From: Planctomycetota bacterium
GTDB taxonomy: Bacteria > Planctomycetota > UBA1135 > JADKAF01
Direction: 5' to 3'
DNA: 64,000 nt
Assembly: GCA_016793245.1 (NCBI GenBank)
Contig: JAEUHW010000286.1
Coordinates: 1 to 64,000, forward strand
Each line of letters opens with the position of its first letter. The stretch's first letter is position 1. The position numbers and the translations under genes are program-made. This document shows positions 8,793 to 49,486 of this stretch, one piece after another. A model generated the notes under the pieces. That model was not told the DNA's origin, ran no database searches, and saw only the letters and a list, made by a program, of their open reading frames with translations.

Positions 8793-11700
8793 GCCCCGCT
8801 TCGTCTCCCGAGAGCTCGCCCGACGCCGACGACGGCGCCGCGGGCGCACCGCCCGAGGTGTCCCGCGCGCCGCACGCCGAGGGGCGCGACGGAGGAGATG
8901 GAGCGGAAGTCGAGGCTCCGCCGGCGGATGCTGGCATCGAGGTGGAGCGAGGCTCCGTCGAGGATCTCGCCGAGCCGACGGCGGAGGAGCGCACCGCTGC
9001 GCCGGTCGATCCAGGCCCTGAGAGCGTCCGAGGACCAGAGGTCGCCGCGAGCGCCGATGCGATCGACTCCGCGTCGGACGACCTGTCCGTCGTGTCGGAC
9101 GCGCTGGAGGTGTCCAGCGGTCCTGCGCCGGAGCTGCTCGAACCGCGGTCGGAGGATTCCGCAGCGGAGTCGCTCGGGAATGCGGGCGCGAGTTCTCCTG
9201 CTCTCGCGATGGAGGGCGCCGCCGTCGCTCCTGAGGCCGTCGCCGAGTCCGCGGACCCGGCGACCCCGTCCGCCGAGCGTCCGGCCGAAGCCGTCGTCGA
9301 GCGCGAGCTGCCGTTCCGGCTGCGCTTGAAGCGCCTCGAGATCCAGGGCTTCAAGTCCTTCGCCGATCGCGTGGACTTCCGCTTCGAGCCCGGCATCACC
9401 GGCATCGTCGGGCCGAACGGCTGCGGCAAGAGCAACGTCGTCGACGCGCTGAAGTGGGTGCTCGGCGAGCAGCGCGCGAAGAGCGTCCGCGGCAACGACA
9501 TGCTCGACATCGTCTTCAAGGGCGCGCGCGGGCGCGTCGGCGCGGACGAAGCGGAGGTGCAGCTCGAGCTCGAGGCGATCGACGAGCACGGCAAGCCCGT
9601 GCGCAACGTCGCCGAGTTCGCGCCCGAGGTCGCGATGCTCGCGCGCGGGTTCAGCGTCGGTCGCCGCCTGCGCCGCGACGGTCAGAGCACCTATCTCTTC
9701 AACGGCGACAACGTGCGCTTGAAGGACGTGCGCGGGCACTTGCTCGACACGGGCCTCGGCGTGCGCGCCTACTCCGTCCTCGAGCAAGGCAAGATCGACG
9801 CCGTGCTCGACGCGAACCCCGTCGCGCGCCGCTCGCTCTTCGAAGAGGCCGCGGGCATCTCGCGTTTCCGCCTGCAGCGCAAGGAGACCTTCTCCAAGCT
9901 CGAGCGCACGCAGGTGAACCTCGAGAAAGTCGAGGTGCATCTCGACGAGATGGGGCGCCGCATCGCGAGCCTGCGTCGGCAAGCGGGGCGCGCGCGGCGC
10001 TTCGCCGAGGTGAGCGAGCAACTGAAGGAGCTCCGTCTCGCCACGGGCGTGCTGCAGCTCCGCGAAGTGACGCGCATGCTCGAGCGCGACCGCAAGTCGC
10101 TCGAAGAGCAGGAGCGCACGGTGGCCCGCTTCCGCCGCGAGCGCGTCGCGAAGGACGAGGAAGCGCGCGTACTGGAGCGACAGGTCGCGCGCTACGCCGA
10201 CGCGCTGGAGGACCTCCGCCGCACCTTGGCCGGCGTCGAGGCCGAGGCGCGCTCGCTGGAGGACCAGCGCGCGATCCTGGAGCGCAACCTGGAGCAGGAG
10301 CGCCAGCGCCAGGTCGATGCCGACGAGCAGGCGCGCGTCGCCGAGGCCCAGCTCGCCGAGCGGCGCGCGAAGGCCGAAGGGCTCGATGCCGAGCTGCTGC
10401 GGCGGCGCGAAGCCGAGCTCGAGGTCGAGCGCGAGCTGGAGACGCTGGCCGCGCGCCTCGACGAGACGCGCCGCGCGTTGAACTCCGCGCGGAAGACGCT
10501 GCAGGAGATCGAAGAGCGGCGCATCGAAGCGACGCAGCAGCGCATGATCGCGTCGAACGCGGTGCACGGTCTGCGCGGTCAGATCGAGTCCGCGGAGCAG
10601 CGCATCCTCCGCCTGCGCGAGCGCTTGGCCGAGATGGTGCGCGAAGAGGAGACCCTCGCGGCGGAAGTGCTCCGCCAGGAGCGCAGCGAACGCGATTGCT
10701 CCGAGGACCTGCGCGGGATCCGCGAGCAGATCGAGGCCCTCGTCGATCGCCGCGAGCGCGCCGACCAAGAGCGCAGCTCGGCGCTGCAGCAGCGCCTCGA
10801 GCTGCGGACGCGCCTCGCGTCGTGCGAAGCGCGGAGCGAAGCGTTGGAAGCGCTGGAGCGCGAGCTCGAGGGCTTCGATCCTGGCACGCGCGCGCTGCTC
10901 GAAGGCACCGCCGGCCAGGCTCCGCCGCGCGGTCTGCGCGGCGCGCTGGTCGATCGCTTGCACGTGCCGACCGCGGAGGCGACGGCCGTCGAGGCCGCGC
11001 TCGGCGCGGCGCTCACCGCGCTGCTCGCCGAGGACGTGGACGCGGTGCGCGCCGCGACCCGCTGGCTGCGCGAAGAGCGCCTCGGGCGCGCGGCCTTCGT
11101 GATCGCGCCGCGCCGCGAGCTCGCGACGGAAGAGCTCGCGACGCCGCCGCCGCTGCCGAGCCTGGAGACCGACCTCCGCTCCGAGCCCGGCGTTCTAGGC
11201 GCGTTGCTCGACTGCGTGCGCGTCGACGGCGACGAGATCGCCGAGGTCGTGCGCCATCTGCTCGGCGATGCCTGGCTCGTCGAAGCCGACGCGGATCTCG
11301 CGGCGCTGCTCCTCCGCGCTCCGAACGGGCGCTTCGTGACGCGCGCCGGCGAGATCCTCCGCGGCGGCCCCGTGGTGCAGGCCGTCGGCGGCTATCTCGA
11401 GGAAGGCACCGGCATCGTCTCCCGGCGCAGCCAGCTCGAAGAGCTCGCTCGCGCCGAGGCCGAGCTCCGCGAGCAAGTCGCGCACGTCGAGGAAGCCATC
11501 GCTCGCGTCACCGCGGAGATCGAAGCGGTGCAGGGCACGCAGGCCGACCTCTCGCGCGCCGAGGCGAGTGTCCGGCGCGCGCTCGAGGAAGCGCGCAGCG
11601 CGCGCGTGCGCGCCGAGAGCCGCTTGACGCGCTATCGCGAGGAGCTCGAGCTCTCGCGCCGCGACCTCGGCGATCTCGAGGACGACCTGGAGCGCTACGA

Positions 11701-39407: not shown

Positions 39408-39575
39408 GGTCGAGCGTCGGCGCGACCTCGCTCCCGGAGCGGCGTCGCCCGGCGGCTCGTTCGCATAGGGGATCGCGGCCGCGAGGCTGGCTCGCGGCCG
39501 GTCGCGCGCCCCAGCGCTTCGCGCGCAGGGCGCGGTTACACTGCGGGCGCTCCCGCGCCACTCCACCAGGTGCCC

Positions 39576-42521
39576 ATGTCGGTCGTTCGCACGACGCGCT
39601 CTCTCTACTTTCTCGGCGTCCTCGCCGCGTGCTCCACGCTCGGCTCCGTGCACGTGCGGGGACAGGAGGAGCCCGTCGATCCGGTGCTCTTGGAGGAGAT
39701 CGACGCCGACCTCCGCCAAGGCAAGCTCGAAGCGGCCGAGGAGCTCCTCACCGAGCTTGCGAGCGAGAGCCCGAGCGATCCCGCGCTCGCCGTGTTGCAC
39801 GCGCGATATCTCGTCCGGCGCGGACGATACGAGCAGGCGCTCCTCCGGCTCGAGGCTGCCGCGGCTGGCACTCCGCCGCGCGGAGAGGTGTTCGCGCTGC
39901 GAGGGGAGGCGCACCTCCGCCGCGGCGACTACGAGGCCGCCGAGCGCGATCTGCGCGCGGCGTGGGACGCGCGGCCGCGCTCGTATCGCGGCGCCTTCCT
40001 CCTCGGCGAGTGCTTGCGCGAGCAAGGGCGACGCGCGGAGGCGCGAGCGCACGGACAGGCCGTCGTCGCGGAGAGCGCGAAGGAAGCGCCGCGCGCGCCG
40101 GCGGATCTGGTCGAGCTCGGGCGATCGCTGCAGGCGCTGCAGCAGTACCAGCCGGCGAGCGAGTGCTACGCCGATGCGCTGCGCGCCGACCCTCGCAACG
40201 CCGACGCGCGCGCCGCGCTCGGCGAGCTGAATCGCCTCGTCTACAACGACACCGACGGCTATCCGAGCGCGCGCCCCGACCTCGAGAAGGCGCTTTCACT
40301 CGACGCGCTGCACCCCGAGGCGAACTTCGCGCTCTTCGTGCTCTACGGCGAGAACTTCCGCCGCGATCGCGAGAAGCGCGGGCGCTGGCGCGCGAACCTG
40401 GTCGCGCTCGATCCGCGCCACGTGCCTCTCGCGCTGCGCGAGGCGGAGGAGCTCCTGCGCGATCGCCGCTTCGAGGACGCGCTGAAGCGCATCGAGGATG
40501 CACTCGCGGTGCAGCCGCGCTCAAGGCGCGCGCTCGCGCTGCGCGCCGCCCACGCGTTCGCGCGCGGCGATCGCGAGACCTTCGCGCGCCTCGAGTCCGA
40601 GCTGCTGGCTCGCGATCCCTCCTACGGCGAGCTCTACGCGATCCTCGGGCGCACCCTCGTCGATCTCTATCGATTCCCGGAGGCGGTCGCTCCGCTGCAG
40701 CGCGCGGTGGAGCTCGATCCCTCGCTCGTCGAAGCGCACATCCTGCTCGGGCAAGCGCTCGCGAACTCGGGGCGCCACGCGCAGGGCCTGCGCGCGCTGC
40801 TCGACAGCCGCGAGGCATTGCCGGGCATCGTGCATCCCTGGCGCGAGAACATGATCACGGCGCTCGCCGCGCTCAGCGAGGAATACGTCGTGCGTCCGCA
40901 CGGCGACTTCCTCTTCTACCTGCAGCCGCAGAGCGCGCCGGTGCTCGAGGAGTACTTGCCGCCGATCTACGAGCGCGCGCTCGCCGTGCTGAGCGAGAAG
41001 TACGGGATCAAGCCACCGTTGCCGGTGCACGTCCAGGTCTTCGATGCCTTCGACGATTTCTCCGCGCGCACCGTCGGCTTCACCGGCTTCGGCGCGCTCG
41101 GCGTCTGCTTCGGCAACACGATCACCGCGGTAGCGCCCGCGGCGCGCGAGTTCCGCGGCAAGTTCTGCTGGATGTCGACGGCGTGGCATGAGTTCGCGCA
41201 CGTGATCACGATCGCGCTCTCGGGCGCGCGCATCCCGCGCTGGCTCACCGAAGGCGTCTCGACCTACGAAGAGAAGCAGCTGCATCCGGGCTACGATCGC
41301 CACTTGGAGCTCGAGCTCGTCGATGCCTACGAGAACGGCGACATCTATCCCGTCGAGCGCTTGAACGAAGCGTTCCGCACGAACCGCATCATCTTCGGCT
41401 ACTACCAGGGCGGGCTCATCTGCGAGTACCTGGCCGGGACCTACGACTTCAAGCGCATCGCGCAGATGATCAGGCTCTACGGCGAGGATCGCTCGACCGA
41501 GGAGGTCTTCCGCACTTGCTTCGAGCTGACGCCGGCGGAGTTCGACCGGCGCTTCCTCGCGTTCGTGAAGGAGAAGATCGCGCCGATCCGCGTCGTGCCG
41601 AACTTGCGCGGCGAGCGCCTCGCGCGGCTCATGGAGCGCGTGCGCGACGATCCGCGCGATGCCGCGGCGGGGGAGCTGCTCGCGTGGCAGCACTTCCGCG
41701 CCGGGCGCCTCGTCGATGCGGAGCTCGTGTTGGGGCAGGTGCTCCGCATGCAGCCCGAGCACGGGCGCGCGTGGCTGCTGAAGGGCCAGATGATCGCGGC
41801 ACGCCAGGGCGCGGATGCTCGAGCGGCGCTCGAGCGCGGCTTCGCCGCGGGTGGCGAGGAGTTCGGTTCAAGGCTCCTCCTGGGACGGCTGCTCGAGCGC
41901 GAGGGCGATCTCGCCGGCGCGGAGGCGCAGTATCGGGCCGCGGCGCTCGCGTTCCCGGGCTGTGGCGATCAAGCCAGCTCGCCGCATCTCCAGCTCTTCC
42001 GCTTGCTGCGCGGGCAAGAAGGGCGCGCTGCCGATGCCTACGCCGAGCTCGAGCGCTACTGCGAGATCGACGGAGCGGCCTTCGAGCCGCGTCGGCGGCT
42101 CGCCGCGTGGAAGGTCGAGCGCCAGGATTGGGCTGCCGCGGATCGCCTCTACCGCGAGGCGAACTTCATCGATCCCTTCTCGCGCGAGCTGCACCTGCGC
42201 TGGTCGCGCGTGCTGGAGCGGCTCGGCCGCGAGGTCGACGTGAGGCGCGAGCTGCGCGTCGCGCGTTCCTTCGATCCCTCGCTGGATCTCTCGACCGTCG
42301 CCCCGCCGTCGCCCGACGAGGCGCCCGAGGCGGATGCGCCTTGGGGAATCCCGGGCGTCAGCGATGACGCGATCTTCCGAGCGGAGACGCAGGCGCTCGA
42401 GGCGGAGAGCTGGCTCCGCGAGGGGCAGCGCGAGGCCGCGCGTTCGGCGGCCTCCGCCGCGCTCAAGGTGCACGGGGATTGCGCGCGCGCGCAGGCGCTG
42501 CTGAAAGCCCTCGGAAACTGA
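39576..42521 (+). CDS. Exported TPR protein with HExxH zinc metallopeptidase domain
   Basis: This roughly 981-residue exported protein has a signal segment (RSLYFLGVLAACSTLGSV). A long TPR array follows (about residues 40-440), then a gluzincin-like peptidase core near residue 540 with AWHEFAHVITIALSG carrying HEFAH. RIPRWLTEGVSTYEEKQ is next, where the Glu of the WLxEG helix is a likely third zinc ligand. More TPR helices continue to the C-terminus. This layout matches uncharacterised peptidase_MA-like proteins of Planctomycetota. The substrate is unknown. GTG at 39570 and ATG at 39576 are both possible starts; ATG is chosen. The 168 bases upstream hold a TACACT -10-like element at 39537. 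Confidence 0.82.
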   Translation: MSVVRTTRSLYFLGVLAACSTLGSVHVRGQEEPVDPVLLEEIDADLRQGKLEAAEELLTELASESPSDPALAVLHARYLVRRGRYEQALLRLEAAAAGTPPRGEVFALRGEAHLRRGDYEAAERDLRAAWDARPRSYRGAFLLGECLREQGRRAEARAHGQAVVAESAKEAPRAPADLVELGRSLQALQQYQPASECYADALRADPRNADARAALGELNRLVYNDTDGYPSARPDLEKALSLDALHPEANFALFVLYGENFRRDREKRGRWRANLVALDPRHVPLALREAEELLRDRRFEDALKRIEDALAVQPRSRRALALRAAHAFARGDRETFARLESELLARDPSYGELYAILGRTLVDLYRFPEAVAPLQRAVELDPSLVEAHILLGQALANSGRHAQGLRALLDSREALPGIVHPWRENMITALAALSEEYVVRPHGDFLFYLQPQSAPVLEEYLPPIYERALAVLSEKYGIKPPLPVHVQVFDAFDDFSARTVGFTGFGALGVCFGNTITAVAPAAREFRGKFCWMSTAWHEFAHVITIALSGARIPRWLTEGVSTYEEKQLHPGYDRHLELELVDAYENGDIYPVERLNEAFRTNRIIFGYYQGGLICEYLAGTYDFKRIAQMIRLYGEDRSTEEVFRTCFELTPAEFDRRFLAFVKEKIAPIRVVPNLRGERLARLMERVRDDPRDAAAGELLAWQHFRAGRLVDAELVLGQVLRMQPEHGRAWLLKGQMIAARQGADARAALERGFAAGGEEFGSRLLLGRLLEREGDLAGAEAQYRAAALAFPGCGDQASSPHLQLFRLLRGQEGRAADAYAELERYCEIDGAAFEPRRRLAAWKVERQDWAAADRLYREANFIDPFSRELHLRWSRVLERLGREVDVRRELRVARSFDPSLDLSTVAPPSPDEAPEADAPWGIPGVSDDAIFRAETQALEAESWLREGQREAARSAASAALKVHGDCARAQALLKALGN

Positions 42522-42657
42522 GCCGGCGGCCCGCTCTTCTGGGCGCTGCCGAGGAAGTCGCAAAGAAGCGTAGCGCGCCTTCTTGCGGCGCTTCTCCGCG
42601 CAGGGCTACGATCGCCCCCCCTCCAGCGGCCCCTCGCCGCCGCGGAGGGGCCCGACC

Positions 42658-43989
42658 ATGGAAGACCCCGAAGCCCTCCTCCGCGACTTCGCCCGCACGC
42701 TCTCTCGCGGCGCGTTCGGCCGGCGGGAGACGGTGCGCGGGCGGTCTGCCAGGGCGGAGCGAGAGCTCTTCGAGCCCTTCCCTGGGCCGGCCGAGGAGCC
42801 GAACCGCGAACCCGCCGCGACGGCCGGTGCCGATCCCGCGGTGGAGGAGGGGGAGATCCGCGCTCGGCGCAGCGCGCGCATCGCGCGGCGGCCCGCGGAG
42901 TCCACCGGGCTCCAGCCCACGCGCCGCCCCGAGGCGGAGCTCGGAGCGAGACTGCCGTTCGACGAGGTCGAGACCGACCCGGCGCTGGCGCGGTCGCCGG
43001 AGCGCGAGACGCCGCGCTGGAGTCGACATCCCGCGCTCTCGGGGGGCGCCGCGTTCGAGACCTTCGCCGTCGACGATGAGAACCGCCTCGCGTTCCGCGC
43101 GGTCCTCGAGACCGCGCAACGACCCGGCGCGCTGGCGAAGCTGTTGTTCCTCCACGGAGTGCGCGGCACCGGCAAGACGCATCTGCTCCGCGCTTGCGCC
43201 GAGGTCCTCGCCTCGCGCGGGCTCCGCGTCGTGCAGCGCGATGCCGAGCGCCTGACCCTGGAATTCACGACCGCGCTCGCGGAGGGGCGCGTCGATGCGC
43301 TGCTCGCCAACCTCGGCGTCGGCGATGCGTTCCTCCTCGACGAGGTCCATCGCGTCGGCCAACGCAAGGCGACGCGCACCTTCGTCGCGCGGCTGCTCTT
43401 GCATTACCTCGAGAGAGATCGCCTCGTGCTCGTCGCGAGCCGCTACCACCCCCGGCAGATCCTCGGGCTGGAGGAGCGTCAGGTCTCGCTGTTCCTCTCG
43501 GGCTTCTCGGTGCAGGTTCGCCCACCCGCCGAGGCGACGAAGGAGCGTTGGCTGCGCCAGCGCCATCGCCTGCTGACGGGCGAGGAGCCGCCGCGCGAGC
43601 TGCACCGCTTGAGCCGCGCGATCCGCGGTGGGCTCGGCGACCTCGCCGCGGCGCACGATCGCTTCCTCTTCGGCGCCGAGATCGAAGAGCTCGCGGGGCT
43701 CTTCGGCGAGGGCATGCCCGCCGTCCTCGCGGCCACCGCGGAGCGCGTCGGCATCGAAGCGAAGCTGCTCGGCGAACGCGCATCGAGCCGCGCCCTCTCC
43801 CGCGCGCGCGACATCGCGAGCCACGTCGCGCTGCGGCTCGGCTATCGCGCGGAGATGGTCGGGCGTCATCTCGGCGGCCGGCGTCCGCAGACGGTGCGCG
43901 CCGCGGCGCGGCGCGTCTCGGAAGCGCTGGCATCGGATCCCGAGCTGCGCGCGGCGGTGGAAGGCGTGCTGATGCGGATCAGCGGCTGA
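42658..43989 (+). CDS. DnaA-like AAA+ protein with altered DNA-binding motif
   Basis: This 443-residue protein begins with about 130 low-complexity, charged residues in place of DnaA domains I-II. The AAA+ domain is DnaA-like: Walker A LFLHGVRGTGKTHLLRAC near residue 165, Walker B DAFLLDEVHRV near 222, VLVASRYHPRQILGLEERQ and a lid domain. Domain IV follows (ALSRARDIASHVALRLGY, then GRHLGGRRPQTVRAAARRV). In DnaA the motif is GGRDHTTV, whose Asp-His-Thr residues read the DnaA box; here it is GGRRPQTV. It may be the organism's divergent initiator or a DnaA paralogue of Hda or DnaC-like function. Its neighbours tmk and holB are replication genes. No DnaA-box cluster was spotted nearby. Confidence 0.72.
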   Translation: MEDPEALLRDFARTLSRGAFGRRETVRGRSARAERELFEPFPGPAEEPNREPAATAGADPAVEEGEIRARRSARIARRPAESTGLQPTRRPEAELGARLPFDEVETDPALARSPERETPRWSRHPALSGGAAFETFAVDDENRLAFRAVLETAQRPGALAKLLFLHGVRGTGKTHLLRACAEVLASRGLRVVQRDAERLTLEFTTALAEGRVDALLANLGVGDAFLLDEVHRVGQRKATRTFVARLLLHYLERDRLVLVASRYHPRQILGLEERQVSLFLSGFSVQVRPPAEATKERWLRQRHRLLTGEEPPRELHRLSRAIRGGLGDLAAAHDRFLFGAEIEELAGLFGEGMPAVLAATAERVGIEAKLLGERASSRALSRARDIASHVALRLGYRAEMVGRHLGGRRPQTVRAAARRVSEALASDPELRAAVEGVLMRISG

Positions 43990-44069
43990 GAAGATGAATG
44001 GGAATCGATGCGGCGACCGCGCACCATCCTCGCTCTCTCGCTGAGGCTGCGATCGCACGCGAACCGCGC

Positions 44070-44696
44070 ATGTTCCTCGTCCTCGATGGTCCCGATGGCT
44101 GTGGGAAGAGCACGCAGGCCCGCCTCCTCGTCGAGGCTCTGCGCGCCGAAGGGCGCACCGTGCAGCATCTCCGCGAGCCCGGCGGCACGCCGCTCGGCGA
44201 AGCGCTGCGCGAGCTCTTGCTGACGCGTCGCGAGCAGGGCTTCGAGATCGCTCCGCGCGCCGAGGTCCTGCTCTTCTTCGCGAGTCGCTGCCAGCTCCTG
44301 GAGGAGCGCGTCCGTCCCGCGCTCGCGCGCGGGGAGACCGTCGTCTGCGAGCGCTACGTCTCCAGCACCTTCGCGTACCAGTCGCGGGCCTCGGGCGCCG
44401 GCGAGGAGCTGGTGCTCGGGATCGCGCGCGCGGTGCTCGCGGAGGCGTTCCCGCCGCCGCTCACGCTGATCCTCGACCTGCCCGCGGAAGAAGGTCTGCG
44501 GCGCAGCCACGCGCGCGCCGGCGCGGATCGCATCGAGGCGCGTGGGCTCGCGTATCACGCGGCGGTGCGCCAGGGCTTCCTGCGCTACGCGGAGCTCTTC
44601 CCGAGCGTGACGCGCGTGCTCCCCGTCGCGGGGCGGAGCGTGGAAGAGGTCGCCGCGCTCGTCCGCGCGGCGCTGCGCGAGGCCGAAGCGCGATGA
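44070..44696 (+). CDS. tmk: Thymidylate kinase
   Basis: Tmk phosphorylates dTMP to dTDP for DNA synthesis. The 208-residue protein opens with the P-loop FLVLDGPDGCGKSTQARLL. It carries the DR(Y/H)-type motif as CERYVSSTFAYQ (about residue 95) and the lid region near EEGLRRSHARAGADRIE. The ATG at 44070 puts the P-loop right at the N-terminus as in the family. An upstream ATG at 43998, just eight bases after the dnaA-like stop, would add 24 residues without homology and cannot be excluded. The stop overlaps holB (ATGA), which also serves replication. Confidence 0.93.
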   Translation: MFLVLDGPDGCGKSTQARLLVEALRAEGRTVQHLREPGGTPLGEALRELLLTRREQGFEIAPRAEVLLFFASRCQLLEERVRPALARGETVVCERYVSSTFAYQSRASGAGEELVLGIARAVLAEAFPPPLTLILDLPAEEGLRRSHARAGADRIEARGLAYHAAVRQGFLRYAELFPSVTRVLPVAGRSVEEVAALVRAALREAEAR

Positions 44697-45733
44697 GCGC
44701 GCACGCGCTCGAGCTCGAGCAGGTGGTCGGGCATGCGGACGTGCGCGCGGCCCTCGTCGATGCGCTGGCGAGCGATCGCTGTCCGCCGTGCTACCTCTTC
44801 GCCGGACCTCCGGGAGTCGGGAAGCGCACGCTCGCCGCGGCGTTCCTGCGCGCCTTCCTCTGTCTCGCGCGGCGCGCGGACGGGAGCGCCTGCGGACTCT
44901 GCGCTGCCTGTCGCGCCGCCGAGCGCGGTCAACATCCCGATCTCCACCTGGTGCCGCAGAAGACGAGTCGGAGCGGCCGCCTGGAGATCACCACCGTGCG
45001 CAGCGAGGTCGTCGAGGTCTTCGACTTGGAGCCCAAGTACTCGCGACGGCGCGGCGTGCTGATCGACCGCGCCGAGACCCTGAGCGAAGAGGCCCAGAAC
45101 TCCCTGCTGAAGACGCTGGAGGAGCCGCCCGCCGGGGCTTGCCTCGTGTTGGTGGCGACGACGGAGACGGCCCTGCTGCCCACGATCCTCTCTCGCGCTC
45201 GGCTCCTCCGCTTCGGGCGCCTCGCGGCGGAAGATGGCCTCGCGATCCTGAGGCAGCAGAGCGGAGGGGCCGAGCCGGAGCTGGTTCTGCGCGAGGCGCT
45301 CGCGCTCGCGGACGGCTCGCCGGGTGCCGCGCTGGAGCTGCTGAGCTCCGAGCTCTTCTCGGAGCGCGCGACGCTCGCCGGCTGGATCCACGCCGGCGCG
45401 CCCTCGCCGGCGGACCTGCGCGAGCTGCTCCCGGGCCTGGATACCGGTGGGCGCAGCGAAGGCACACGAGAAGAGCGCAAGGAGCGCTTGCACGAGCTCT
45501 TCCAGCTCACGCTGCTGCTCGCCGGCCGCGAGCTCCGCGAAGGCTGCAGCGCCGACGCACCGGGCGCGTCCGCGAGCGACGCCGATCGCGAAGAGGAGCT
45601 CCGCCGCGGCGCGCTCATGGCGAGTTGTCAGCGCTGGGCCGAGCTCGGTTTGCGCGCGCTCGACGACCTCGAGGCGATGGTGACCCCCGAGCTCGTCTTC
45701 GAACTCTGGGCCGCCGGCTTGCCTCGCGCCTGA
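44693..45733 (+). CDS. holB: DNA polymerase III subunit delta' (clamp-loader)
   Basis: Delta' is the stator of the clamp loader that places the sliding clamp on primed DNA. The 346-residue AAA+ protein has FAGPPGVGKRTLAAAFL (about residues 36-52). A four-Cys zinc module is built from CLARRADGSACGLCAACRAAERGQHPD (63-89). The family stretch NSLLKTLEEPPAGACLVLVATT (about 131-152) and SRARLLRFG sensor region follow. The C-terminal domain is Glu/Arg/Leu-rich and variable, as usual. The P-loop Lys-Arg variation is common in delta'. The ATG overlaps the tmk stop, the standard tmk-holB pairing. Confidence 0.93.
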   Translation: MSAHALELEQVVGHADVRAALVDALASDRCPPCYLFAGPPGVGKRTLAAAFLRAFLCLARRADGSACGLCAACRAAERGQHPDLHLVPQKTSRSGRLEITTVRSEVVEVFDLEPKYSRRRGVLIDRAETLSEEAQNSLLKTLEEPPAGACLVLVATTETALLPTILSRARLLRFGRLAAEDGLAILRQQSGGAEPELVLREALALADGSPGAALELLSSELFSERATLAGWIHAGAPSPADLRELLPGLDTGGRSEGTREERKERLHELFQLTLLLAGRELREGCSADAPGASASDADREEELRRGALMASCQRWAELGLRALDDLEAMVTPELVFELWAAGLPRA

Positions 45734-45795: not shown

Positions 45796-46209
45796 ATGGA
45801 CCCCGCCCAGCAGGAAGAGCAGATCCGGCGCATCGCCCGGATGCACGGTAGCTTCGATCCCCAAGCCTACGGCTTCGTGCTCGAGGGTCTGGGCTGGACC
45901 GTCGATCAGCTCGGTCGCCGCGACAAGTCCGAGCCGCATCGCCACGTCAGCGGACGAGAGCTGCTCGAAGGGCTGAAGGACTACGCGCTCGAGGTCTTCG
46001 GCCCGCTCGCGCGCACCGTGCTGCAGCTCTGGGGGGTCCGGCGCAGCGAGGACTTCGGAGCGATCGTCTTCCACCTCGTCGATGCGCAGATGCTCTCGCG
46101 CCAGGACAGCGATTCGCCCGACGACTTCGCCCGCGGCTACGACTTCCGCGATGCGCTGGAGAGCAGCTACCGCGTCCGCTTGCCGAGCCGACTCGGCGGC
46201 GCGCCGTAG
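45796..46209 (+). CDS. Minf_1886 family protein (conserved, unknown function)
   Basis: This 137-residue soluble protein belongs by appearance to the Minf_1886 family, found in Planctomycetota, Verrucomicrobiota and related phyla. Recognisable stretches are YGFVLEGLGWTVDQ, GRELLEGLKDYALEVFGPLA, VLQLWGVRRSEDFGAIVFHLVDAQML and a final FDFRDALE-type segment (here YDFRDALESSYRV). No enzyme motif, signal peptide or membrane segment is seen. It follows holB by 62 bases and converges on the S41 protease gene across the hairpin repeats. The family role is unknown. Confidence 0.85.
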   Translation: MDPAQQEEQIRRIARMHGSFDPQAYGFVLEGLGWTVDQLGRRDKSEPHRHVSGRELLEGLKDYALEVFGPLARTVLQLWGVRRSEDFGAIVFHLVDAQMLSRQDSDSPDDFARGYDFRDALESSYRVRLPSRLGGAP

Positions 46210-46439: not shown

Positions 46440-48827
46440 TCAGCCCTTCTTCTCCTTCTCCTTCAGCTCTTCTTCGCGGCGCTTCGCCGCCTCGGCGAGC
46501 TCGGTCGGGATGCGAGCGAATTCGGGGACCTCTTCCAAGCGCGCGCCCAGCTTCTCGAAGACCTTCGAGAGCGCCGTCTGGAGCTGGATGTCCTCTTCGT
46601 AATCGCCCTCGAAGCGGTAGCCGGGGAACACCTTGCCGCGGTCGTCGCTCACGCGCTCGCGGACGTTCAGGCGCACCCAGCGCCGCACGTCGTCCTTCGA
46701 GAGCGTCTTCACACCCAGGCCCTCGAAGAACGCGTCGAACTCGGGATAGCGCGAGGTGTCGTGAGCATCGCCCTCCGCGAGCTTCACGAAGAGCTCGCGG
46801 TGCTTCGGGAACTGCTCGTCGACGTACTTGCGGAACACGCCCTTGCTGACGAGCCGCTCCAGCTCCTGGAGCTGCCAGATCGGCAAGCGCTCGTGCTCGA
46901 TCTCGATGTCGGGCTTGATGCCGCCCTCGTCCTTCAGCGTTCCGTCCTTGTTGTACTGCGTGTTGATCGAGCGCCCGTTCGGCAGGAAGTACTCCGAGGT
47001 GGTGATCTTCACGCGCGGAGAGTAGTCGTAGACGCCTTGCGTTCCGTAGGGATTCGAGTCGGTGAACGGCTCGTACTCGTCGAACTTGCCGTTGTCGTTC
47101 TTGTCGACGTACTCCTCGTCCTGGAAGAGGCGCTGGAGCTGCTGCACGGTGCCCTTGCCGTAGCTGCGCTCGCCGACGAGCACGGCGCGGCCGTGGTCCT
47201 GCAGCGCGCCCGCCACGATCTCGGAGGCCGATGCGCTGCGCTCGTTGATGAGTACGGCGACCGGCAGGCCCTCCGGCACGAGCGGACGACCGCGGGTCGA
47301 CATCGTCTTCTCCGCTTCGACGCGGCTCACCGTGCGCACGACCTTCGTGCTCCGGGGCAAGAAGACGTTGGCGACCTCGACGGCGATCTCGAGGAAGCCG
47401 CCGCTGTTGTTGCGCAGGTCGAAGACGAGGCCGCGCATGCCGCGCTTCGAGAGGTCGGTGATGGCGCGGCGCAGCTCCTCGGCGGCGTTGCTCGAGAAGG
47501 AGACCAGCTCGACGTAGCCGATGCCGCCGGGGAAGAGCTCGTACTGGATCACCGGCACCTGGATCTGGTCCCGCACGATGGTGAAGTCCTTCGGCTCCTC
47601 GAAGCCGGCGCGGAAGACCTTCACGACGACCGGCGTGCCCGGCTCGCCCTTCAGGCGCTTGATGATGTCGTCGTTCGCCTTGCCCTGCGTCTCCCAGCCA
47701 TCGACGGTGAGGATCGCGTCGCCCGAGCGCAGGCCGGCCTGATAGGCGGGGCCGGAGTAGATCGGGCGCGTGATCTGGAAGATGCCGTTCAAGGTCTGCA
47801 CGAAGGCGCCGATGCCGCCGTAATCCTGGTTCAGGTCGAAGAGGAAGCGCTTGTAGTCCTCGCCGCTGATGTAGGTCGAGTGCGGATCGAGCGCGTTCAG
47901 CATGCCGCGCGCGGCGGCTTCGATGAGCTCCTTGTCATCCCAGAGATCGCCCTGCACGTGCTGCGTCTGGATCATCTCGCGGATGCGATTCAGGAGCTGC
48001 ACGTTGGCGACGTCCATGCCGCGCGTCTCGCCCGCGCCATCGCGCTTCATGCGCGCGCTGAGCTGGGCGATCGTGCGCTGATAGACGAGGTCCCGCTCGT
48101 CGATCTCGAGGTAGAGGCGCGCGACCTGACCCGCTGCACCGCCGCGGTCGCGCATGCGCTCCAGGTCCTTCCGGACGCCATCGACGTCGCCGATCTCCGC
48201 GAGCGCGAGGACCGCGCTCTCGCGCAGCGCGACGTCGCTGCTCTCGAGGACGCGGCGCAGCTCGGCCTTGGCCTCGAGCTGCTGCGCGGGCTTGCCGAGC
48301 TCGAAGAGCGCGGTGGAGGCGCCGACGCGCGTGGCGCCCGGCAGCTCGCCCGCGGCCAACTTCTGCGCCAGCGCATCGCCGACGCGCTCGCTGGTCTGCT
48401 CCTGGAAGCGCACGACATCGGCGCGCAACGCCTGCGCGGCGGCGCTGCCGACCCCGTCCTCGACGCCGCCGTGGATCGCTCCGAGCAGGAGCCCCGCGGC
48501 GTCGTCGATCTGCGCGGAGGCGCTCGCGAGGCGGAGCAGGCTCTGCCCGTAGATCAGCTTCGCTCGGTCGGGCGCGTCCTTGCCCGCCGCCCGCAGCGCT
48601 TCGATCACGCTGGGGATTCCGGCCTGGTCGGCGAGGGCCAGGACGTCGTCCTGGAGCTCCGGCAGTCGATCGACTTCGAGCTTCGCGGCGCGCTCGGCGA
48701 TGCGCGCGAGCTTGGCCGCCAGGTCTTCTTGGGCCCGGGCGACTCCGACCGGCGCGCCGAAGATCGCGAGCAGCGCGAAGGAGAGCGAGGCGAGGCGAGG
48801 CTGGCGAGTCGTTTGCATCGGCATCAT
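46440..48827 (-). CDS. S41 carboxy-terminal processing protease with HEAT-like N-terminal region
   Basis: This roughly 795-residue periplasmic protease has a signal peptide (LASLSFALLAIFGAPVGVARAQ). About 230 residues of helical, repeat-like sequence follow (ALRESAVLALAEIGDVDGVRKDL). Next is the tail-specific protease core: DPHSTYISGEDYKRF, a PDZ (IYSGPAYQAGLRSGDAILTVDG), GGIGYVELVSFSSNAAEEL, RNNSGGFL, the nucleophile Ser in NERSASASEIVAGAL and the general-base Lys in GERSYGKGTVQ. The C-terminus is long and Lys/Glu-rich. Start: three in-frame ATG codons lie within ten bases; 48827 is used. CtpA/Prc-like enzymes trim or degrade envelope proteins. The extra N-terminal repeats are unusual for the family. 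Confidence 0.9.
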   Translation of the reverse strand: MMPMQTTRQPRLASLSFALLAIFGAPVGVARAQEDLAAKLARIAERAAKLEVDRLPELQDDVLALADQAGIPSVIEALRAAGKDAPDRAKLIYGQSLLRLASASAQIDDAAGLLLGAIHGGVEDGVGSAAAQALRADVVRFQEQTSERVGDALAQKLAAGELPGATRVGASTALFELGKPAQQLEAKAELRRVLESSDVALRESAVLALAEIGDVDGVRKDLERMRDRGGAAGQVARLYLEIDERDLVYQRTIAQLSARMKRDGAGETRGMDVANVQLLNRIREMIQTQHVQGDLWDDKELIEAAARGMLNALDPHSTYISGEDYKRFLFDLNQDYGGIGAFVQTLNGIFQITRPIYSGPAYQAGLRSGDAILTVDGWETQGKANDDIIKRLKGEPGTPVVVKVFRAGFEEPKDFTIVRDQIQVPVIQYELFPGGIGYVELVSFSSNAAEELRRAITDLSKRGMRGLVFDLRNNSGGFLEIAVEVANVFLPRSTKVVRTVSRVEAEKTMSTRGRPLVPEGLPVAVLINERSASASEIVAGALQDHGRAVLVGERSYGKGTVQQLQRLFQDEEYVDKNDNGKFDEYEPFTDSNPYGTQGVYDYSPRVKITTSEYFLPNGRSINTQYNKDGTLKDEGGIKPDIEIEHERLPIWQLQELERLVSKGVFRKYVDEQFPKHRELFVKLAEGDAHDTSRYPEFDAFFEGLGVKTLSKDDVRRWVRLNVRERVSDDRGKVFPGYRFEGDYEEDIQLQTALSKVFEKLGARLEEVPEFARIPTELAEAAKRREEELKEKEKKG

Positions 48828-48997
48828 CGAGGTTCCGAAGGGAGGGAGCGCGACGCCGACCTCCGCGGAGGAACGGCACCGCGTCCTTGGCGTGCGCGCT
48901 TCATCGCGCTCGCCCCGCGCGGGCGGTTGCGGTATTCCATACGGCCCGCATGCCGCTCCGCAAAGGCCGGAAGGGAAAACGCTTGCCGTAGGCGCCC

Positions 48998-49486
48998 ATG
49001 GAACACGATCGTCCGACGCACCTCGACGCTGAAGGAGAAGCCGCGATGGTGGACGTCTCCGGCAAGCGCACGAGCGTCCGCAGCGCGAGCGCCGAGGCGC
49101 TCGTGCGCTTCCCCGCGGGAGTGCGCGCGCGTGCGTTCGCCGGCGAGGCTGGCAAGGGCTCGATCCTCGGCGTGGCAAGAGTGGCCGGTATCCAGGCCGC
49201 GAAACGCTGCGCCGACCTCATTCCTCTCTGTCACACGCTGCCGCTGGATGGCGTCGCGGTCGAGTTCGAGCTCCGCGGCGAGGACGAGCTGCGCGTGCTC
49301 TGCACCGCTCGCACCGAGGCGCGCACCGGCGTCGAGATGGAGGCGCTCACGGGAGCCGCGCTCGCCGCGCTCACCGTCTACGACATGACGAAGGCGCTCG
49401 ACAAGGGCATCCGCATCGACGGTCTGCGCCTGCTCGCGAAGAGCGGCGGCAAGTCGGGAGATTGGAACGCCCCTGACGCCGGCTAG
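48998..49486 (+). CDS. moaC: Cyclic pyranopterin monophosphate synthase MoaC
   Basis: MoaC makes cyclic pyranopterin monophosphate in molybdenum cofactor synthesis. The 162-residue protein shows the family order MVDVSGKRTSVRSA, GARVAGIQAAKRCADLIPLCHTLPLDGV-type region (here from VARVAGIQAAKR), ARTGVEMEALTGAALAALTVYDM and the final KSGGKSGDW with catalytic Lys. It is the only moa gene visible here. Its partner MoaA is not in the window. Confidence 0.97.
   Translation: MEHDRPTHLDAEGEAAMVDVSGKRTSVRSASAEALVRFPAGVRARAFAGEAGKGSILGVARVAGIQAAKRCADLIPLCHTLPLDGVAVEFELRGEDELRVLCTARTEARTGVEMEALTGAALAALTVYDMTKALDKGIRIDGLRLLAKSGGKSGDWNAPDAG

Follow-up and report, generated by a model that had tools for sequence, protein, structure and literature searches.

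The DnaA-like gene of the window (the whole stretch of planctomycetotal DNA analysed here, 64,000 nucleotides) is a DnaA paralogue of ancient origin, distinct from the canonical initiator. Within the phylum, 14 family-level groups have this paralogue upstream of tmk-holB, and many others do not have it. Judged from residues and gene order, the window paralogue is best read, tentatively and at a little less than an even chance, as a partner or regulator of DnaA that does not itself initiate replication. Control of initiation is known in detail for few lineages, and we found nothing in open PMC text on DnaA limitation in this phylum; a syntenic, ancient DnaA paralogue with recurring losses of switch residues offers a concrete, testable candidate for such control. 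No description of a tmk-linked DnaA paralogue was found in open-licence PMC full text, subscription journals and preprints lying beyond that scope.

A DnaA-type protein encoded next to tmk and holB

The sequence-only reading of this DNA recognised an AAA+ core and a helix-turn-helix (HTH) of DnaA type in the product, and both are borne out by profile and structure comparisons: the protein scores 74.8 bits to Pfam Bac_DnaA (cut-off 23), matches the DnaA equivalog model TIGR00362 at E 6e-33, and has solved DnaA structures as its best structural relatives (E 3e-17). On these matches, its homology to DnaA is far beyond chance. The TIGR00362 score (114.5 bits) lies below the cut-off of that model (343.9), as does the score to the C-terminal Bac_DnaA_C domain (21.1 bits, cut-off 31.5); at E up to 0.01, Bac_DnaA_C is matched in 19 of 20 members of the paralogue group. 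A Pfam search found no match to DnaA_N (PF11638, domain I) in the window protein. The claim that low-complexity sequence replaces domains I-II is fair for this protein and does not extend to the whole family, since domain I is recognised in 8 of the 20 orthologues aligned. A single-sequence AlphaFold model of the paralogue had a mean pLDDT of 38 and was set aside.

Table 1. Features of the paralogue gene and its neighbours, in window positions
Feature	Position	Strand	Remarks
TPR / peptidase-MA-like protein, conserved upstream neighbour	39570..42521	+	In 11/19 order loci, 8/9 other-family loci
Shine-Dalgarno-like GGAGGGG	42644..42650	+	7 nt before paralogue ATG; predicted from sequence
DnaA paralogue, 443 aa	42658..43989	+	ORF, 443 aa plus stop; Bac_DnaA 74.8 bits; orthologues close to tmk in 29 genomes, its own among them
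Low-complexity N-terminal region, residues 1-120	42658..43017	+	62% R/E/P/A; where DnaA domains I-II would be
Walker A GVRGTGKT	43156..43179	+	Lys in 29/29 operon proteins
Walker B FLLDEVHR	43330..43353	+	DE instead of DnaA's DD
Sensor 1 VASRYHPR	43432..43455	+	E. coli Asp269 to Arg
Box VII RQVSLFLSG	43477..43503	+	Arginine finger (E. coli R285) to Leu
Sensor 2 region RGGLGDLAAA	43624..43653	+	E. coli Arg334 to Gly
Domain IV basic loop	43768..43812	+	Minor-groove Arg399 to Ser, Arg407 kept
Recognition-helix region HLGGRRPQTVRAAARR, residues 404-419	43867..43914	+	From alignment
tmk (dTMP kinase)	43998..44696	+	TIGR00041 140.3 bits; start 8 nt after paralogue stop
holB-like DNA polymerase III delta' subunit	44693..45733	+	Overlaps tmk by 4 nt
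Minf_1886 family protein, conserved neighbour	45796..46209	+	TIGR04138 133.2 bits

The reading frame opens with ATG, and an in-frame TTG lies further upstream at 42583. A perfect 8-bp hairpin (GGCCCCTC/GAGGGGCC, window 42628-42652) covers the Shine-Dalgarno-like motif; folding of the entire leader is no better than that of its shuffles (z -0.95).

The gene order around the paralogue is conserved. Within the order, 41 genomes were searched (40 and the window's own) and 20 regions taken for comparison, of which one (L053), a short weak match without the operon, was dropped, leaving 19 loci. In 18 of these the paralogue stands immediately before tmk, and in the remaining one (G035) it is 2.7 kb away; holB is present in all 19 and the Minf_1886 gene in 18 (opposite strand in L050). 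Furthermore, among the 17 of these loci in which a tmk start could be placed, a candidate start overlaps the end of the paralogue by 1-10 nt in 15. The holB-like frame of the window scores 129.2 bits to Pfam DNA_pol3_delta2, above the cut-off of 27, and 164.6 bits to TIGR00678, below the cut-off of 180.6. In loci from other families, taken with longer flanks, the arrangement paralogue-tmk-holB-Minf_1886 recurs in 9 of 9, and the only one of them without the TPR gene stops at a contig end. An 875-aa frame with no Pfam match follows in the window (46761-49388), and many of the loci have its relatives in the corresponding position, downstream of Minf_1886. The paralogue is probably expressed together with tmk and holB, and the identity of its operon-mates may reflect only that shared expression.

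Ancestry, distribution and the canonical DnaA of the genome

In a maximum-likelihood tree with long branches, the internal order of which is not to be trusted, 26 operon proteins make up one side of a single branch and 55 other DnaAs (that of E. coli and 54 from the phylum, of which 3 are short) the other, with support of 85/98. A quick search with 29 operon proteins against the 55 again separated them by a single branch (SH-aLRT 96). The window protein has the three features by which the tmk-linked paralogue is defined, namely its side of this branch, its place upstream of tmk-holB and an Arg at sensor 1. A recent duplication within the genome was rejected, as grouping the window protein with the DnaA of its own genome gave a p-AU of 0.0044. 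Of the two options that the sequence-only reading had left, a sole DnaA or a paralogue that may regulate initiation, it is the latter that stands, strengthened, in the form of an old, syntenic gene upstream of tmk-holB. Operon copies are 0.24-0.67 identical and canonical copies 0.53-0.89, the operon copies being less alike in each of the 11 genome pairs compared, and the copy of genome G002 is reduced (287 aa, lid not alignable). Such fast evolution, together with the reduced copy, would be compatible with a role that drifts or is particular to a lineage.

The paralogue was identified in 20 of the 41 genomes of the order (families f1 1/1, f3 1/1, f5 8/9, f6 8/8 and f7 2/2) and not in f2 (0/1), f4 (0/10) or f8 (0/9); in f4 and f8 it is absent at tmk in 10 of 10 loci. 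Elsewhere in the phylum, with one genome sampled per family, it stands at tmk in 9 of 73 other families (f10, f13, f19, f21, f23, f27, f32, f36 and f44); none was found at tmk in the other 64, where some loci are shortened by contig ends and single absences are soft. In two further families (f11 and f34) tmk was not found. Two weak matches were dropped from this survey, G001 (18.2 bits) and G094 (15.9 bits), which by eye consist of an SRP-type GTPase and a delta'-like subunit, as were the duplicate tmk loci L082, L084, L085 and L086. In two f8 genomes, G036 (L070) and G020 (L076), a TPR/peptidase gene lies directly against tmk, an apparent clean loss of the paralogue unless it was never gained; three other loci have a gap of 0.6-0.9 kb between the TPR match and tmk with no recognisable DnaA inside. 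A profile search matched 392 of 393 genomes of the phylum because canonical DnaA matches the profile too, and no count of the paralogue is taken from it. Since the paralogue is absent from many genomes of the same order and from many sampled families, it is dispensable.

The sequence-only reading had proposed looking for a canonical DnaA, and one was found. The host assembly (7.57 Mb, 458 contigs, 89.6% complete) holds a second DnaA on contig C118, located in a dnaA-dnaN-dciA-gyrB cluster, with domain I, the motif GGRDHST and scores of 481.6 bits to TIGR00362 and 94.3 bits to Bac_DnaA_C. This rules out the window gene as the only DnaA, and with it the suggestion that the origin box must differ from the usual one; because the window gene is not the sole DnaA, the origin question is carried by the canonical gene. 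A canonical-type DnaA is present in 25 of the 26 paralogue genomes examined first (out of 29), and the one exception, G035, is a 66%-complete assembly. A contig scan with one protein found only one locus, which comes from a deltaproteobacterial MAG and encodes a DnaA of canonical type. The presence of a DnaA-like gene, with or without an HTH, is by itself no evidence for an origin or its box, and automatic annotation may label such paralogues dnaA.

DnaA boxes were examined, as likewise proposed. The exact box TTWTNCACA occurs 0 times in the window (0.04 expected) and 0 times in the 19 kb canonical locus (0.03 expected), and a one-mismatch box, TTCTCCACA, lies in the gap of ~740 bp between the canonical dnaA and dnaN (L003, about 9433-10168). 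The same 9-mer also occurs twice between dnaA and dnaN of genome G042 (L130). On its sequence, the dnaA-dnaN gap of L003 is a candidate oriC.

Switch and DNA-reading residues

In E. coli DnaA, Arg334 is described as serving ATP hydrolysis and Arg285 ATP-dependent assembly, while Val211 and Arg245 contact single-stranded origin DNA and Arg399 and Thr435 contribute to box binding (PMC5742627). The box-reading set is given as R399, P423, D433, H434, T435 and H439 (PMC7561715). We compared switch and DNA-contacting positions, in E. coli numbering, between the 29 operon proteins and the 55 other DnaAs. The P-loop is intact, with Walker A Lys178 also in all 55 others, and the second acid of Walker B is Glu in 23 of 29 operon proteins and Asp in 55 of 55 others. 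The sensor 1 position, Asp in 50 of the 55 others, is Arg in 28 of 29 operon proteins and in none of the 55. Sensor 2 Arg334 is kept in 3/29 vs 55/55 and the arginine finger Arg285 in 13/29 vs 54/55; in the window protein the switch residues read D269R, R285L and R334G. Of the positions that contact single-stranded DNA, the H motif has V or I at 211 in 8 of 29 operon proteins vs 47 of 55 others, and the B motif R or K at 245 in 17 of 29 vs 42 of 55, a weak difference.

The DNA-reading residues are likewise changed. Arg407 is found in every protein of both sets, whereas Arg399 is kept in 5/29 operon proteins (Lys in 10) vs 51/55 others, Asp433 in 0/29 vs 45/55 and the box-reading His434 in 3/29 vs 55/55; the window protein carries R399S, D433R, H434P and T435Q. 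The signature is not uniform across paralogues, some of which keep the arginine finger, the sensor 2 Arg or His434. As had been read from the sequence, GGRRPQT aligns where E. coli DnaA has GGRDHTT. Its use as a defining motif does not carry over to the relatives, which have GGRTRAAVSY, GWxSASSV and others, and GGRRPQT was seen in the window protein only, whose family is represented by one genome in the sets searched. To judge from the alignment, the mark of the family is the loss of DnaA-box-reading residues rather than GGRRPQT.

Within families the recognition helix is conserved, and between families it differs (GGRTRAAVSY-like in f5, GWxSASSV-like in f6). Among the 8 f5 orthologues, mean identity in the recognition-helix region is 0.70, close to the Walker motifs (0.73 and 0.72), with 0.38 in the H/B-motif region and 0.51 in the lid; among the 8 f6 orthologues the corresponding values are 0.59, 0.60 and 0.71, 0.25 and 0.22.

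Proposed role and comparison with known systems

As a non-initiating partner or regulator of DnaA, the paralogue would still bind ATP through its P-loop, yet would stand off the usual ATP-DnaA/ADP-DnaA switch, because the sensor 1 Asp has become Arg, the sensor 2 Arg is gone and the arginine finger is often absent. A switch altered in this way makes it unlikely to build an initiator filament or to melt an origin alone. Head-to-tail DnaA assembly would be altered in the paralogues, and to a marked degree in the window protein. The paralogue probably still binds DNA, at other targets, since the recognition helix is conserved within families and differs between them, and the HTH would thus probably bind sites other than the DnaA box. 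The paralogue could act on DnaA by mixed AAA+ contacts, for example by capping or spacing the DnaA oligomer, and/or could bind DNA close to the origin or to genes of replication, its production being tied to that of tmk and holB. It would thereby fill a niche occupied elsewhere by Hda or YabA, as a member of neither. A bolder version, which we think somewhat unlikely, envisages a class of DnaA, as deep as the phylum, that abandoned initiation to become a DNA-binding AAA+ partner of the canonical DnaA, a built-in and operon-coupled controller with a re-specified HTH, co-assembling with DnaA or capping it at the origin, so that initiation would be a two-DnaA process.

The retained HTH, with Bac_DnaA_C in 19/20 members, and a promoter-like box before the paralogue would also suit a DnaA-derived transcription regulator, for instance of its own tmk-holB operon or of nucleotide or replication genes, with no direct role in initiation. 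For B. subtilis and Caulobacter, DnaA itself is described as acting on transcription as a factor of this kind (PMC4447404, PMC3193534). We regard such a regulator as unlikely: the 8 f5 copies have no clear shared operator upstream (in 8-mer footprinting the best 8-mer reaches 5 of 8 copies, as do 6 of 50 mononucleotide shuffles), the promoter-like pattern is generic and shows no excess in the window (16 occurrences against 17.7 expected), and the kept AAA+ core with its invariant P-loop goes beyond what a simple repressor needs. Recognition helices specific to each family, domain I beside AAA+ and HTH domains in 8/20 aligned orthologues, and B-motif contacts to single-stranded DNA that are not clearly lost could instead point to a second initiator that recognises a box of its own and fires either another origin of the chromosome or an integrated replicon. 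Against this stand the depleted H motif, the losses at sensors and finger, and a gene order passed on vertically within a chromosomal operon and not next to a replicon, and we consider it very improbable.

Linkage to holB raises a further possibility, a replisome-loading or restart factor, that is, a helicase-loader or clamp-loader accessory in which the AAA+ module would work with delta' (the holB product) or DnaB. DnaC and DnaI are DnaA relatives that load the helicase, and the DE now found in Walker B is common in many loaders. DciA (PF05258) was undetected in 8 of 8 f6 genomes, all paralogue carriers (G005, G010, G015, G019, G023, G027, G031 and G035). It may simply be too diverged there, however, and DciA is found in the other 33 of the 41 genomes, among them paralogue carriers of f1, f3, f5 and f7; this coexistence rules out a general replacement of DciA by the paralogue. 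DciA was also sought beside dnaA at five f6 loci, four of which have no dnaN or gyrB match beside dnaA, the fifth giving only marginal gyrB and dciA matches (E 0.44 and 0.18). Scores to the IstB and DnaI models also fall far short of the cut-offs, and a loading or restart role is in our view improbable.

Among known systems, DnaA itself (TIGR00362) shares with the paralogue the AAA+ core, the HTH domain, common ancestry and, in some orthologues, domain I. The paralogue differs at sensor 1, sensor 2, the arginine finger and the box-reading residues, and in being encoded with tmk-holB while the canonical DnaA lies elsewhere. Other extra DnaAs of the phylum resemble it as additional DnaA-family genes in genomes with another DnaA, but none of the 55 non-operon proteins, these included, has lost His434, and all of them are separated from the operon proteins by the branch. 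The second DnaAs of f9, f57, f59 and f72 (L116, L114, L115 and L113), on the canonical side, have N, H or T for D433 and keep His434. Three finished genomes (L117, L118 and L119, of f26, f70 and f67) have a short DnaA from base 1 and a longer one elsewhere; the short frames (340, 365 and 347 aa) leave no room for domain I and carry GRGNHST, GGRDHTT and GRDHTT, and in L118 and L119 a frame that by eye resembles the beta clamp follows.

The helper ATPases DnaI/IstB and DnaC are likewise DnaA-related AAA+ ATPases, and are not known to carry the DnaA HTH. In a comparison that comprised IstB and DnaI models and no DnaC model, the window protein scores 34.2 bits to IstB (cut-off 200) and 21.7 bits to DnaI (cut-off 228). 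Hda/HdaA, too, is a DnaA paralogue beside a canonical DnaA, and by analogy the paralogue is a candidate regulator. It is not Hda, an identity that fails on the TIGR03420 score (47.7 bits, cut-off 194.8), on the clamp motif and on domain layout. By regex, the 29 paralogue proteins share no N-terminal clamp-binding motif, and the window protein has a single match, which begins within box VII at residue 275. Furthermore, the paralogue keeps an HTH domain, which in the window protein scores under the Pfam cut-off and which is absent from E. coli Hda, and E. coli Hda keeps the sensor 2 Arg and the arginine finger, both lost in the window protein. Hda is nonetheless, as an analogy, a precedent for a DnaA paralogue turned regulator.

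YabA of Bacillus is a negative regulator of DnaA associated with tmk and holB, and yabA shares its operon or neighbourhood with these two genes. A single STRING group, made up of genes that co-evolve with polC, lists YabA together with tmk, holB and yaaT (PMC3814617). YabA is described as acting on DnaA assembly and as having an N-terminal helix bundle and a Zn-binding domain (PMC5295017); it is an unrelated protein and no relative of DnaA. By analogy, its association with tmk-holB points the same way as the reading of the window paralogue as a partner or regulator of DnaA.
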